Assembly: GCA_016178595.1 (NCBI GenBank)
Contig: JACOSY010000026.1
Location: 1 to 58,292, forward strand
Reading direction: 5' to 3'
Source: Ignavibacteria bacterium
GTDB lineage: Bacteria; Bacteroidota; Ignavibacteria; UBA10030; SZUA-254
DNA: 58,292 bases
A program made the position numbers and the translations under genes. This document shows, piece after piece, positions 28,758 to 58,292 of this stretch; the first letter of the stretch is position 1, and each line of letters opens with the position of its first letter. The notes under the pieces are model-generated. The model searched no databases. It worked only from the letters and a program-made list of their open reading frames with translations, and had not been told where the DNA came from.

Positions 28758-31700
28758 TTAATCAAAATCAAAACCGAAGAGAACGCCGAAGTGGAAGTTC
28801 CACTCTTTCCCATACGTCACCGCCGGCACTCCACTCGATGGTACGTAGTGTTGAAACTGGTCGAAGCCATACGTGGCATTAAAGAATATTCGTGTTGGAA
28901 AAGCATAGTATGAAAACGCTTCAAGTCGCAGCTCGGCACCGGCGTCGCGCTTGAACTGTTGTCCGCTCGGACCGCCGCCGGTCCATGCCGATCCCACATC
29001 GCCGTAGAATGCAGCATACAGCTTATCGAAGTACAATTGCAGTATGCGAAGATCGATGTGCTCGAAGACCGGAAAACGGTATGTGAGGTTGGCGTAGGCA
29101 AACTCGTTGCCGCCAAGCGAATAGAAGGGATACCCTTTCATGCCGGCAAGGCCGCCGATGTAAAAGTCGAAGAAGTTGTCTACCGGTGGACCGAAGATCG
29201 TTCCGCCGCGAAGCTGTGCCGTCAGTGTGTGCTTCCAGCCGGGAAGCTGTTGGTGCTCCTTCCAACTAACATCGAGTCGATGGAAGTTCGGATGCTGGTA
29301 TTTGGGAACGAGCAGACCGTCCGTGATCTCGTACTCGTTGTCCGGATTGAACTTGTTGAATTCGTACTCGTAACGCACGCGAATCTTCCGGCCAACGGGA
29401 TTGATCTCTTGCGTGCGCGAGATGCCAATGCCGTTGAACGTCCACGTGAGAGAAATATCGTTGCCCACGAAATAGAGCGTACCGAAGGCCTGAAACACTT
29501 GCGACGGTGCGTTCGAGAGCGGATCGTAGAACACAAAACTACCGATACTCGCGTTGTACCGGCTATGCGCGTATCGCAATTCGACGTCCAGCGCTTCCGT
29601 AAAGATCTTCTGTTTCATTGCAATATCGAACTCGAGCAGGCTGTACGTGATTTCAACCGGCACGAGTAAATCTTCTCGAAGCTTCAGCGTGTTGTCGGTT
29701 TTGCGCGTGATGTTGTACGCTTCCAACGAGACTGCAGGCTCAAACCCGAGCTGGTACAAACCCGGAACTTTTCCTCTGTAATCGAATGTGAAGAACAAAT
29801 CGCGCTCGCCTTTTCGATTGAACGCTGCGCCGGCAAAGAATCCGTATCGATCGGTCATGTCATACGAGTAACCATAGAGACCAAGCTTCAAGACATCGAT
29901 CCCCTTATTCTTGGGATTATAGTTATCGACACGCAGAAATGGGATGAATGTCAAACTCGTTGCTACAGTCGTATACGTCGTGTCGGTGTGCGCGGGAAGT
30001 TGAGAGTCGTCGTAGTTGCGAAGTGCAGACCAGTTGAATGGCTGTCCCTGCGAGTCTGTTCCGTTGGATGCAATCTGGACGCGCTCGTTGAATGCTGTTT
30101 GCTCTCTCGCTTCGTATGCAGCAGGCGACTGGAGAGGATGAACGGCAGAGAGCAACGCCAGCTTGTATCCCGTTGATGTATACGATGCAAAGGCAACCTC
30201 TCCTGTCGCGTTCACTGCCGGCATGAAAGCGCCGCCCAGAACGTTCGTAAGCTGAACGATCTCTTTCGTCGCAAGATCGTATTCATAGAGATTGAAAATG
30301 CCTGTCTTGTCGGATGAAAAGATGACCTTTGTTCCATCCCGGTTGAAGACGGCATTACGTTCATCTGTTGGTGTTGCCAATATGAACGCGACTGTTCCAC
30401 CGTCGGCAGGAATGGATGCAACATCGCGTCCATCCTTGATCGAGTAATCGAAGATGATCGTTTTTCCATCCGGCGACCATTTTGGATTGTAGACCTGCTC
30501 GCCGCTCGTGTACTGAGTAAGCTGGTGAATATTCGTTCCATCCGCACTCATCGTGAAGATGTTCAGCGTCCCGTCACTCCCCGCAACAAAGGCGATCGTT
30601 GTCCCGCCGGGCGAGGCGGCAGGTGCATTGGCACGCGCACCGTGTGTCAAACGGGTTTCTTCCTGTTGATCGATGTCATAGACATAGAGGTCAAGGAGGT
30701 TTGACCAGTGATCGTTAGAGCGCCTCGTCTTCGCGTAATAGATTTTTTTTCCATCCGGCGACCATGAAAAACTCGAACGAACACCCGACTTCAGAAGCTT
30801 CTCTTCCTTCGTTACGAGATCGTACAAATACAGCGATGACTGTGAGAAGTAATCCGATTCCTTGTTGGAGACATAGGCAAGCGTTTTGCCGTCAGGCGAA
30901 AATGCCGGATAGAAATTCGCGAAACCTACTTTGCCGATCGTATCGCCGGTAACGAGTGCGCCTTTGATTCCTTCCGTTCGTTTTGCATAATCGGTGCGGA
31001 AGTACTCGCGCCATTCATTGTAAAGATCCTGGCCGCTCTTGCCGGTTGCCGCTTCAATCGCACCATCGATGGTGACGCGATGGAGGGAGGAAAGTGCGCG
31101 GGAAATTTCTTCCAGTTTCCCATCGCCGTAGCGCTCACCGATGTACCGGACAAAGGCGAAACCCGCGTTGTAGGAACTCTCGTTGCCAAGACTCGTCTTC
31201 CCAAAAACCGCCATCTCGTTCCAGGTCAGCATGTTATTGTCGAGCGCATACATGCGAAGAATCATGTCGCGGTGGGCATCCCATTGATCGTAGCCGAGCT
31301 CTTTGCGGTTGAACTGCGCAACGCCTTCCGCAAACCAGCTCGGCATCACGAAACCGGAAATGGGATACGAGACAATGCCGTTCGGATAGCCATAGAGAAC
31401 GTCCGTCCTCCGCTCCGATTCATATTGCAGCCACTGGAGGTAAATGGCCGGAACTCTGCGGCCGAACTTGAGCGCAGTTTGTATCTGGACGATGTGTGTA
31501 AACTCGTGCGTGACCACGTTGCGCAGCCAGTTGTGCGTGCCGCGGAGATCGAAGTCGAGGGCGGATGCCCAAATCTCGATCTTGTTGTCGAAGAAGTAGG
31601 CGGCCCCGTTCGAGAAATCATCGTAATCCTTGATGACGAAACTGACCTTGCCATCAGGCTGGTGGTGATACAGCGACGTGACAGGCTCGTAGATCTCCTC

Positions 31701-55118: not shown

Positions 55119-55263
55119 TCTATATCATTGGTAGTGTAGGAAATCTGTACGGCATGAGATCGTGGTCGTACTCCGTGATGATTCTGAGTACGTACGTCAT
55201 TGGGTCCAGTGGAATCCTGGGAATCGCCTTAATACATCCGGTCGTGGTAAAATCTCGATCGGC

Positions 55264-55292
55264 TTGCGTGCCAAATTTTTTTTTAATATACT
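55264..55292 (+). promoter_or_regulatory. Promoter for the CerR-like gene
   Basis: TTGCGT (55264-55269) and TATACT (55287-55292) are exactly 17 bases apart, the spacer including a run of nine T. Predicted start near 55299 gives a leader of about 70 bases before ATG 55372. Confidence 0.55.
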
Positions 55293-55371
55293 TGATTGGC
55301 GTTTAAAAGTCAATAAAGTGTTCTGCCGCCATTTCGCCGCCTTCTTTTCCAAAGAAATCTCACAGAATTGC

Positions 55372-56358
55372 ATGCGCGTTCTTATCACTGGTGCAACAGG
55401 ATTCATCGGCAGTCATCTCACTGAAGCACTTCACGCGAAGGGGCATCAGATACGCTGCCTTGTCCGCCGAACATCAAATCTTGTTTGGATCAAACATCTG
55501 CCGATCGACTACATCTACGGAGATCTGTTCGATCACGATGTCTTAAAAAAGGCGGTCGATACCATCGACTGCATCTACCATCTTGCAGGCATTACCAAAG
55601 CAAAGACGAAAGCAGAGTATTTTCTCGGAAATCATATCGCGACAAAGAACCTTCTTCAGGCCATCCTCGCATCAAATTCACGGCTCACCAGGTTTGTGCA
55701 TGTCAGCAGTCAAGCAGCCGTTGGCCCAAGCCTCAACGGAAAAGCTGTCGATGAAGAAACGCCCTTCCATCCGATTACGACATACGGAGTCAGCAAGATG
55801 GAAGCGGAGAAGGAATGCCTGGTGGTCCGCGATCGAATTCCAATAACTATCACTCGCCCTCCGGCAGTATACGGACCCCGCGATAAAGATGTCTTCGCGT
55901 TCTTCAATGCGATGAACGGCGGCTTTCAACCGATGATTGGATTCAACAATAAACTGGTGAGCCTCATTCACGTGAAGGATTTGATCGGCGGAATCGTTCT
56001 CGCCGGTGAACATCCCAAAGCAACGGGCCAAACGTACTTCATTTCGAGCAATCGTTATTACGGCTGGCGCGAAGTAGGCGAAGTCACCGCACGTGTTATG
56101 GGGAAGAAGCGCGTCGTGCGGTTACGAATACCGGAATTCGGCGTGTACACGATAGCGGCATTTTCCGAACTGTTCGGATTACTGAGTTCGAAACCCGTGC
56201 TCTTGAATTTTGAAAAGGCGAGAGATATTGTGCAGGATGCCTGGACGTGTGATATTTCGAAAGCAACGCGGGAGCTTGGTTTTCGAGAAGCGTTTACACT
56301 GGAAGAAGGAATACGAAATACTGTTGAGTGGTACCGTCAACAAGGCTGGTTGAAGTAA
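55372..56358 (+). CDS. NAD-dependent epimerase/dehydratase, probable ceramide-pathway reductase (CerR-like)
   Basis: This 328-residue extended short-chain dehydrogenase has the NAD(P)-binding motif TGATGFIGSHL at the N-terminus and HLAGITKAKTKAEYFLGN. The catalytic YxxxK is in TTYGVSKMEAEKE, followed by TRPPAVYGPRDKDVF. The C-terminal DISKATRELGF and NTVEWYRQQGWL resemble Bacteroidota CerR proteins, which reduce the oxidised sphingoid intermediate. I placed the start at ATG 55372; an in-frame extension to 55162 lacks homology and crosses the promoter. It is divergent from spt, completing the three-gene set. Other sugar-nucleotide roles remain possible. Confidence 0.75.
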   Translation: MRVLITGATGFIGSHLTEALHAKGHQIRCLVRRTSNLVWIKHLPIDYIYGDLFDHDVLKKAVDTIDCIYHLAGITKAKTKAEYFLGNHIATKNLLQAILASNSRLTRFVHVSSQAAVGPSLNGKAVDEETPFHPITTYGVSKMEAEKECLVVRDRIPITITRPPAVYGPRDKDVFAFFNAMNGGFQPMIGFNNKLVSLIHVKDLIGGIVLAGEHPKATGQTYFISSNRYYGWREVGEVTARVMGKKRVVRLRIPEFGVYTIAAFSELFGLLSSKPVLLNFEKARDIVQDAWTCDISKATRELGFREAFTLEEGIRNTVEWYRQQGWLK

Positions 56359-56409: not shown

Positions 56410-56482
56410 CGCGGGGTGGAGCAATTGGTAGCTCGTTGGGCTCATAACCCAAAGGCTGCAGGTTCAAGTCCTGCCCCCGCTA
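56410..56482 (+). tRNA. Initiator tRNA-fMet (CAT)
   Basis: The 73-base gene folds into a full cloverleaf: acceptor CGCGGGG/CCCCGCT, D-stem GAGC/GCTC, anticodon loop CTCATAA (CAT), T-stem GCAGG/CCTGC with loop TTCAAGT. Three consecutive G:C pairs close the anticodon loop (GGG-CTCATAA-CCC) and base 1 does not pair with base 72 (C1 and U72). These are initiator hallmarks, and the sequence is close to E. coli tRNA-fMet. CCA is not encoded. Its 3' end overlaps the end of the recombinase gene on the other strand. Confidence 0.95.
56464..56482. other. Probable attachment site of an integrated element in tRNA-fMet
   Basis: The recombinase reading frame ends (TGA, complement of 56464-56466) inside the T-arm of tRNA-fMet, so the last few codons are written in tRNA sequence. 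Integration at the 3' end of a tRNA, restoring the gene, is a common att arrangement. The second copy of the core would lie right of the window and cannot be seen. The exact core boundaries are inferred. Confidence 0.5.
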
Positions 56483-58236
56483 CTTCGGGGACTCGCAATT
56501 TCGATTGAGGGTCCCCTTCTGTTTTTGAACAGATCCTCTATTTCTGGTGAGACAGCCGGAACTCGCCTCACGTAAAACCGCACGACCTCTTTCTCCCTAT
56601 CTACGATAATCTGTGAGATGATCTTCCTTATCAAATCTTTCTGATCTTCTATGGGTGCGGTGTGGATTCGGCTTTCAAAGTCAAGGACAAATTCTGCCAC
56701 TCTTTGCGAAATTGACAGCGGATTAGGTTTTTGACTTTCATCGTCCCGATCCATCATCCTTTTGAGGGATGAAAGCTTTGTTTTCAGAGCTTCCGCTTCC
56801 GCCTCGATTTCTTTTAACCGAACAAACAGTGACTGGATCCCCCCACTCTGTTCAATGGCATCAGTAATGTTTTTAGCCTTCTGAGCGGCTTCCACCAAGA
56901 GTTTCTCCAATCGTTCAATCTCAGAGTTGTTCTCAGAGGGTGATGCTGTTAGGAGCAATTCTAACTCGTCCTCAATTTCCCGAATGAGGAGTGGATGTGA
57001 CAAGGTCTCCTTGATCGCTTGAAGCGCAAAATCCTCAAGCTCACTTTTTCTTATTCCAAGATGCGAACAGACCCCTTTGTTCTTCCATCCGCCATCGATG
57101 TACTTTTCGTACTTCTTACCGTCGACCCCACTTGAACACCCTTGAAACGGGAACCCACAACGAGAGCACTTAATAAGTCCCGTCAAAAGATATCTTCCTT
57201 TGTACATGTATCCATTACTTTTTTTCTTCATCTCCGTTTGTATCAGGTTGTTAACTTCTTGCCAGAGTTCTTTGGTGATGATTGCTTCGTGGGCACCCTC
57301 TTCGATGAGCCATTCCGACCTATCATTCCTCCAATGAGGATAAGAAACACCGTGTTTTTGATCCATCCCTTTCTGTTGTGCTTGGATTTTGCTCATGGAG
57401 TTCCGGTTATACACTCTGGCGCCGTAATAGGTGGGATTCTCCAGAATGGTTCTCACGGTCACCGTGCTCCATTTCTGGTCCTTATTTCTCCACCTGCCTC
57501 GCTTGGGACATGGAATGGAACGATCATTGAGAGACTTTGTAATTAAAAATAGACTAACGCCATTATGGCGCATCTGGAAAATCATTTTCACCACATTGAT
57601 TTCCTCCGGATCTCCGAGGGCCCAACAGACTTTCTCCTGGCCGGAGATGCTCCACTCGCCTGCTTGAAGTAGTCTACGGTTACCGGTTTTGGTATTAATG
57701 GCGATTCGCTGATATCCGTAGGGTGCTGTTCCGCCGTTGGAATAGATGCCATTATTCTTGGCGCCTCGGAGGGTGAGTTCCGAAAGCTTCTTACTGTATT
57801 GAGAAGCTTGAACGCCTTCAAAGGCTGATAGCATCGGAGCGAATTCATTGGTGCGATCCACTGACGTTTTCACCAAGACAACATCCACTCCAAACTTTCT
57901 GAAGTGCACTCGCCAGTACGTATTCTCCTCAGCATCAATAGCTCGTCCCCAGCGAGATTCATCATAACAGATGACCGCTTGAAAATTTGGTTTGCAATCG
58001 ATTGTGGTCTTCAGGCGTTGAAATTCTGGCCGCTGTTCGAAGGTTGTCCCCGATTTGCCAAAGTCAATATACCATCCTGTGACTTCATATCCTTTTGTAG
58101 AGGCAAAGTCCAGAATCGCCTTCCGCTGCTGATCGGGCGAATCCTCCTGCGTCTCGGTCGAGCAGCGTACGTATGCAACGGCAGCTTTCATCACCATCCC
58201 TGCATCCATCCGGATCTTCGAATAGGTCGCGGCCAT
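56464..58236 (-). CDS. Large serine recombinase (site-specific integrase)
   Basis: The 590-residue protein has a resolvase-type N-terminal domain with catalytic serine S26 in AYVRCSTETQEDSPDQQ, and ESRWGRAIDAEEN. It then has the Recombinase domain (GGTAPYGYQR, ILENPTYYGARVYNRNSM) and a zinc ribbon (IKCSRCGFPFQGCS with a later VCSHLG). A coiled coil lies at about residues 425-495, before the C-terminal part. Large serine recombinases integrate and excise phages or conjugative elements. The true start may be ATG 58191 (AGGG upstream) or an intermediate ATG instead of 58236. It is probably the edge gene of an element that continues beyond the window. Confidence 0.92.
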   Translation of the reverse strand: MAATYSKIRMDAGMVMKAAVAYVRCSTETQEDSPDQQRKAILDFASTKGYEVTGWYIDFGKSGTTFEQRPEFQRLKTTIDCKPNFQAVICYDESRWGRAIDAEENTYWRVHFRKFGVDVVLVKTSVDRTNEFAPMLSAFEGVQASQYSKKLSELTLRGAKNNGIYSNGGTAPYGYQRIAINTKTGNRRLLQAGEWSISGQEKVCWALGDPEEINVVKMIFQMRHNGVSLFLITKSLNDRSIPCPKRGRWRNKDQKWSTVTVRTILENPTYYGARVYNRNSMSKIQAQQKGMDQKHGVSYPHWRNDRSEWLIEEGAHEAIITKELWQEVNNLIQTEMKKKSNGYMYKGRYLLTGLIKCSRCGFPFQGCSSGVDGKKYEKYIDGGWKNKGVCSHLGIRKSELEDFALQAIKETLSHPLLIREIEDELELLLTASPSENNSEIERLEKLLVEAAQKAKNITDAIEQSGGIQSLFVRLKEIEAEAEALKTKLSSLKRMMDRDDESQKPNPLSISQRVAEFVLDFESRIHTAPIEDQKDLIRKIISQIIVDREKEVVRFYVRRVPAVSPEIEDLFKNRRGPSIEIASPRSSGGRT

Positions 58237-58292
58237 CGAGGCCGGTCGATAGGTTCTTGGTCCGGGACTTGAGTTCCACGCGCAGCCTGTTC

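Follow-up and report, generated by a model that had tools for sequence, protein, structure and literature searches.

A large serine recombinase gene that ends inside the initiator tRNA gene of an Ignavibacteria bacterium, and the tRNA-associated recombinase clade to which it belongs

The window (the whole stretch of DNA analyzed, 58,292 nucleotides) is the entire contig C22 of the fragmented Ignavibacteria bacterium assembly GCA_016178595.1 (here G000, 61 contigs). Toward its right end lies a tRNA-Met(CAT) gene with the C1:U72 mismatch of the initiator type (Table 1). In G000, a 101-bp query across this gene has a single full match and five partial ones (14 to 19 bp), and the gene is the sole initiator tRNA gene found in this bacterium. 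The homologue of the host gene to its left adjoins tRNA-fMet in G007, G008, and G013 as well, with 62 to 66% identity. From the other side, a gene for a large serine recombinase (LSR) adjoins the intact tRNA, the arrangement by which tRNA-targeted elements are recognized. The LSR contains, in order, the domains PF00239 (Resolvase, residues 19 to 160), PF07508 (Recombinase, 210 to 333), and PF13408 (Zn-ribbon, 350 to 409), all of which exceed the Pfam cutoffs. Its stop codon, placed in the T-arm by an earlier sequence-only reading, indeed lies at 56464 to 56466 within the T-loop TTCAAGT, with an overlap of 20 nt between open reading frame and tRNA. The element-side arm following the tRNA also codes for part of the LSR C terminus.

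Table 1. Positions of the features around the tRNA-fMet gene in the window.
Feature	Position	Strand	Basis
Host gene, 398 aa, NAD-epimerase-like (by eye), left of the tRNA (host side)	55162-56358	+	Synteny
Initiator tRNA-fMet (CAT), probable target	56410-56483	+	ARAGORN; sole tRNA gene on the contig
tRNA nt 66-74 (CCCCGCTAC), putative core shared by attP and attB	56475-56483	+	Analogy with the repeats of G077, L227, and L228 and the G008 copies
Element-side arm after the tRNA; terminator-like hairpin GGGGAC...GTCCCC, then T-rich	56484-56527	+	Read by eye
Large serine recombinase (LSR)	56464-58191 (575 aa, probable ATG 58191) or 56464-58236 (590 aa)	-	Pfam domains
3' end (33 codons) of a gene that probably codes for the large subunit of a GpA-type terminase; truncated at the contig end	58191-58292	-	Alignment to terminase tails

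The ATG of the shorter LSR frame overlaps the stop codon of the upstream frame (TGATG), and the protein read from there begins with MKAAVAYVRCST, as in its relatives. The upstream frame ends in ...RRSGWMQGW, and its 33 residues resemble the ends of the GpA-type terminases of L227, L228, L229, and contig C44 of G000. The summed score of this tail against the four terminase tails is reached by 3 of 2000 shuffles; for the remaining two frames, the numbers are 776 and 309 of 2000. The overlap and the terminase-like tail together indicate that the LSR probably starts at 58191 and not at 58236, directly after a phage terminase gene. Terminase genes adjoin clade LSRs in L227, L228, L229, and C44, which supports the view that the window probably contains part of a prophage whose terminase is of the GpA type. 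Only the left end of the element is visible, as the contig stops at 58292. For the cargo, which the sequence-only reading left blank, the tail points to a probable prophage.

G000 contains three LSRs of the same clade, located at tRNA-fMet (C22), tRNA-Leu(CAG) (C4), and tRNA-Glu(CTC) (C44). The C44 paralogue lies next to its GpA terminase, and the C4 paralogue lies at a contig end and has a broken frame. The ends of contigs C22 and C4 are identical over exactly 141 bp, presumably the largest k-mer of the assembler. This identity indicates that the two elements probably share sequence beyond the contig ends.

Ten aligned LSRs served as the query for a clade search in 98 genomes of the order and in an overlapping sample of 395 genomes from the phylum. 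The order yields 17 matches at an E value of ≤1e-60 in 15 of the 98 genomes, and the phylum sample adds two at ≤1e-100, both in G363. In 18 of these 19 clade members, the LSR frame enters or crosses a tRNA gene from the 3' end. The targets are initiator Met (8 members), another CAT tRNA (4, a class pooling elongator Met and Ile2), Leu-CAG (3), Glu-CTC (2), and Pro-CGG (1). The recurrence of one architecture in 18 of 19 members and at five tRNA types is more than chance would produce. The LSR tree of the 19 members shows two groups with full support, and the 18 tRNA labels require at least seven target changes, the minimum for five labels being four; with 6 of 16 inner branches open and five rows partial, the exact course of these changes is uncertain. 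The labels are nevertheless clustered on the tree: with the unlabelled row counted as a sixth state, eight changes are needed, a number as low in 4 of 200 shuffles.

All 34 LSR-domain matches in the 98 genomes served as a control, and the 17 outside the clade were inspected. These proteins are 20 to 26% identical to the clade, apart from the fragment L226 with 37% over 79 residues. Four of the 17 overlap a tRNA (Asn in three cases and Asp in one), one lies 2.4 kb from a tRNA-Asn, and 11 have no tRNA in the stretch examined, one of which, L224, runs off its contig end. This indicates that the use of tRNA genes is neither confined to the clade nor general among LSRs. The four overlapping genes, L216, L217, L221, and L222, form a distant second group at the 3' ends of tRNA-Asn and tRNA-Asp, with L220 situated 234 bp from a tRNA-Asn. 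They resemble the clade in that the LSR frame enters the tRNA 3' end and differ from it in sequence, with 20 to 23% identity to the nearest clade member. Within the clade, the LSR of G008 has an open frame of 577 codons with an in-frame stop just before the start codon. L045 (G053:C184) is an LSR without a catalytic N terminus, and the sequence in frame before approximately query residue 133 is unlike that of other LSRs.

The junction between recombinase and tRNA varies among relatives. At least five family members (G001, G005, G006, G009, and G014) carry other DNA after the tRNA and no clade recombinase at that place, which speaks against the fixed junction that the sequence-only reading had named as the outcome contrary to its own proposal. 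Decayed LSR ends overlap tRNAs in G013, G009, and G029, and another lies ∼0.75 kb from tRNA-Glu in G033. Such decay, together with the immediate end of the contig, would fit an old immobile LSR remnant at the tRNA with no element beyond it. This explanation is improbable for the window, where the LSR frame is intact and R24, C25, S26, T27, R95, and R98 are among the columns of the catalytic region that are invariant in the ten aligned clade members. The terminase-like tail that follows the gene also stands against it, as does the 141-bp sequence, which follows the tRNA-Leu paralogue too and implies repeated sequence beyond. The element in G000 may still be active.

The elements of the relatives differ in content. 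In addition to its terminase gene, L227 carries a ParB-like and a Mom-like gene. A second element type occurs at tRNA-Leu, tRNA-fMet, and another CAT tRNA (in G028, G036, G052, and G008) with a common backbone of several genes. Despite this shared backbone, the LSR of G052 belongs to the other main tree group than those of G028, G036, and G008, so that LSR and backbone appear exchangeable. In the tRNA-Leu element of G028 (L040-L041, G028:C15:1-39999), matches to AbiEii, SIR2, HerA, SngB, SngC, and a CBASS cyclase lie close together, by profile alone; this cluster may represent a defense island on an LSR element. The same element contains, ∼13.5 kb from the tRNA, a gene in which a phage-integrase N-terminal domain is found. 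Another integrase, such as a tyrosine integrase farther inside, could have inserted the window's element into the tRNA with the LSR as a passenger; according to an excerpt of the Islander database paper, the enzymes ordinarily found at tRNA genes are tyrosine integrases (PMC4383910). This proposal is improbable: only N-terminal SAM-like domains are found in the G028 gene, the LSR itself is the gene next to the tRNA in 18 of 19 clade members, across elements of differing content, and the attP-like repeats described below sit at the LSR 3' end.

Five of the seven matches in viral contigs are relatives of the clade, with 37 to 57% identity. L229 has its LSR at an intact tRNA-Glu, and L230 and L231 terminate with the LSR. 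L227 and L228 contain no tRNA; just the last 10 and 14 nt of one, respectively, lie beside the LSR. The 19th clade member, in G077, likewise has the last 10 nt of tRNA-Glu beside the LSR instead of a tRNA. The longest perfect inverted repeats around these tRNA ends measure 11 bp (G077), 9 bp (L227), and 6 bp (L228), and all of them are centered between nt 65 and 66 or on nt 66, the boundary of T-stem and acceptor stem. A tRNA end centered in an inverted repeat is as expected of an attP, and the three sites are accordingly termed attP-like here. Equally long repeats arise in 0 (G077), 21 (L227), and 1655 (L228) of 20000 shuffles of the left arm. At 23 tRNA junctions beside an LSR or LSR remnant, the repeats measure 3 to 6 bp with scattered centers, and 2 of the 23 equal the 6 bp of L228. 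When matched arm positions are counted at center 0, shuffles are as good in 43 of 5000 cases for L227 and 1011 of 5000 for L228; with a floating center, the numbers are 882 and 626 of 2000, the best center of L228 being at +3. L228 alone is thus a weak case for an attP, and G077 and L227 are clearer. In G077, a second copy of left arm and core is followed by other DNA, as in an attR; its LSR is broken, and the adjoining frame is one we take to be transposase-like. L227 and L228 are short linear contigs in which exact terminal repeats of 20 to 199 bp are absent, and they may represent a rearranged chromosomal locus. The frame just past the attP-like site of L227 (6442-6744) could be a phage cargo gene or host DNA; its end presumably resembles a type IX secretion sorting domain. 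Further scans of viral contigs, four with single proteins and one with the alignment, gave nothing new. An attP-like pattern run over the viral contigs matched 39 of them, two of which (L227 and L268, the contig of L228) are known LSR carriers, and was discarded as too loose.

The closely related LSRs of G093 and G053 allow the exchange to be placed. The DNA directly after the tRNA is shared, and the T-stems differ on both strands, which points to an exchange in the segment that separates the T-stem from the tRNA end and agrees with the center of the attP-like repeats. The crossover is therefore placed, by comparison of sequences, at nt 65|66, which in the window would correspond to approximately 56474|56475. 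The sequence-only reading held that the element takes its last codons from tRNA bases. With this crossover, only the 11 bases 56464 to 56474 would stem from the host tRNA; the remaining bases up to 56483 would belong to the element and merely have the tRNA sequence. Mismatches in the T-stem were considered as scars of the crossover and rejected, as the same mismatches occur in tRNAs without an LSR. Fixed bases after the tRNA likewise failed as an LSR signature, an A at +8 being present in 18 of 23 tRNAs with an LSR and 6 of 8 without. The bases after the tRNA vary between elements, and the attP-like sites contain only 10 to 14 nt of tRNA sequence. From these two points it could be argued that the target is the DNA just outside the tRNA, the overlap being incidental. 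That seems improbable, given repeats that center within the tRNA sequence and core copies in G008 that correspond to tRNA nt 66-74.

These copies come from a comparison of G008 with G013, a member of the same genus. The two genomes are collinear up to the end of tRNA-fMet; the match then resumes after 125,776 bp in G008 and after 119 bp, containing an LSR remnant, in G013. The ∼126-kb insertion of G008 contains five further copies of the 9-nt core, every one of them on the tRNA strand, and the opposite strand has none. Of 500 draws of permuted 9-mers, two reach five copies and two more reach four; the draws may include the same 9-mer. Two of the five copies have a common left arm. The copy at G008:C7:615658 is followed by a C-terminal LSR remnant (36 residues; E value, 7e-4) and also by an arm like that of G002. 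The insertion may be read as several elements accumulated at one tRNA. No single element can be delimited in it, as the gene order of G013 differs and this genome has a second core at 29716, within a 215-bp match to the G008 copy at 581258. As a marker of the right host flank, the yhiN-like gene of G013 was rejected for other genera: it is present in 12 of 15 family genomes (E value of ≤0.001), with no tRNA in the stretches around it outside G013. An extra 11 kb of G013 (L052 and L096, G013:C18:16071-27499) with genes that appear restriction-modification-like by eye is missing at this place in G008.

Searches for longer copies of the tRNA end gave no second end. In G000, a 20-nt tRNA-end pattern with up to two mismatches matched only tRNA-fMet, the second CAT tRNA, and one two-mismatch site on C58. 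The 20-nt Met/fMet pattern in 12 genomes found the tRNAs themselves and two-mismatch matches, the reversed control giving 0 to 2 per strand and genome, and the Leu pattern in seven genomes gave one exact match each and four two-mismatch matches. With 11-nt seeds at 15 loci, the only longer copy was a truncated tandem repeat of the tRNA, located on its upstream side in G036; the other matches were short and looked like chance. Such searches miss the second tRNA end because the core comprises only ∼9 to 10 nt (nt 66-74). The second copy of the tRNA 3' sequence predicted by the sequence-only reading is thus seen in relatives, as the cores of the G008 insertion and the attR-like site of G077, and not by the 20-nt pattern in G000. 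Dead copies of tRNA-fMet with a palindromic hairpin replacing the D-loop at the same place occur in L050 (G036:C49, first 122 bases, reverse strand) and L110 (G003:C19:76668-76742); in the G003 copy, the T-loop is replaced as well.

Comparison of window positions 57785-58292 with G000:C4:103285-103791 shows exact runs of 28, 98, and 141 bp in paralogous LSR DNA that is strongly divergent elsewhere. These runs could stem from gene conversion or from an assembly chimera. An assembly artefact at the window as a whole, either a misjoin of LSR and tRNA or a gene chimeric from the two paralogues, would suit these runs and the 61-contig assembly and is the least probable explanation, since the same tRNA junction is seen in independent genomes whose LSRs have diverged, and the runs in common fall within the 5' portion of the gene, >1.2 kb from the tRNA.

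The tRNA-LSR junction in the window is best read as the attL of a mobile element that was placed into tRNA-fMet by its own LSR and that most likely is a temperate phage whose terminase is of the GpA type, a reading to which a probability of roughly 0.8 is assigned. The insertion by the recombinase at the tRNA 3' end, as originally proposed, agrees with the clade-wide pattern, with the attP-like sites that carry a tRNA end, and with the G008 insertion relative to G013. In the proposed mechanism, the LSR would recombine two sites, an attB within the tRNA gene and an attP in which the final 9 to 14 nt of the tRNA are flanked by inverted-repeat arms, with the crossover at or next to the boundary of T-stem and acceptor stem. 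The element would then provide the 3' strand of the acceptor stem and a new downstream region, the tRNA would remain whole, and the displaced host remnant would comprise only ∼9 nt. As the LSR gene lies directly against attP and its frame continues across this site, the last codons would consist of host tRNA bases in the integrated form and of element bases in the free form, and each integration would swap the C-terminal tail. The tail reads SSGGRT* in the integrated copy of the window; in the attP-like copies of other elements, a longer tail follows SSGG or SSGD. A tentative extension, which we consider possible without favoring it, is that a tRNA-specialized LSR lineage moves between isoacceptors by means of the tRNA end, with the crossover at the T-stem/acceptor boundary, and that the tail exchanged at each integration might switch the activity or stability of the enzyme depending on integration.

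Among characterized serine recombinases, the TP901-1 integrase and TnpX have target sites that, to our knowledge, are not tRNA genes. Their catalytic regions (3bvp_A and 2mhc_A) match the N-terminal region of the clade LSR, the match being confined to approximately the first 126 residues. In searches of phage records, only distant relatives with <30% identity occur among the matches listed (in one search, the best 10 of 318), and those same listed matches name no Paracoccus phage. The phage phiPam-6 of Paracoccus aminophilus is described in an excerpt as inducible, with a serine-family recombinase and an assignment to tRNA-Met (PMC3925955). In a partial text of a later comparison, where it is named vB_PamS_Pami6, it alone of the 15 serine recombinases compared has a predicted site (PMC6536676). 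It resembles the window's element in combining a serine recombinase with tRNA-Met, and its 17-bp flanking repeats look, in our own reading, like a tRNA-Met 3' end; it differs as an alphaproteobacterial phage. The excerpted part of the Islander database paper leaves out serine-family integrases as not known to target tRNA genes (PMC4383910). As far as these excerpts go, phiPam-6 is a published counter-example to that statement and, among phages with a serine integrase, the sole precedent found for the use of tRNA-Met. A clade of tRNA-using serine integrases was not encountered in the open-licence literature, as represented by such partial texts. The tyrosine-integrase islands described there (PMC4383910) are alike in that the integrase adjoins the tRNA, the element restores the tRNA, and targets switch in evolution; they differ in the unrelated enzyme family and, in the LSR clade, in the ∼9-nt displaced remnant.

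The use of tRNA genes by serine integrases is thus of a rarely reported kind, and the clade extends it with a testable attP and crossover. Tyrosine integrases are the enzymes to which the targeting of tRNA genes is ascribed, a view from which this LSR clade departs. The very short displaced remnant suggests that tools seeking longer tRNA repeats would miss such elements. With at least seven target changes, the clade offers natural att pairs for studying how the specificity of serine integrases changes.
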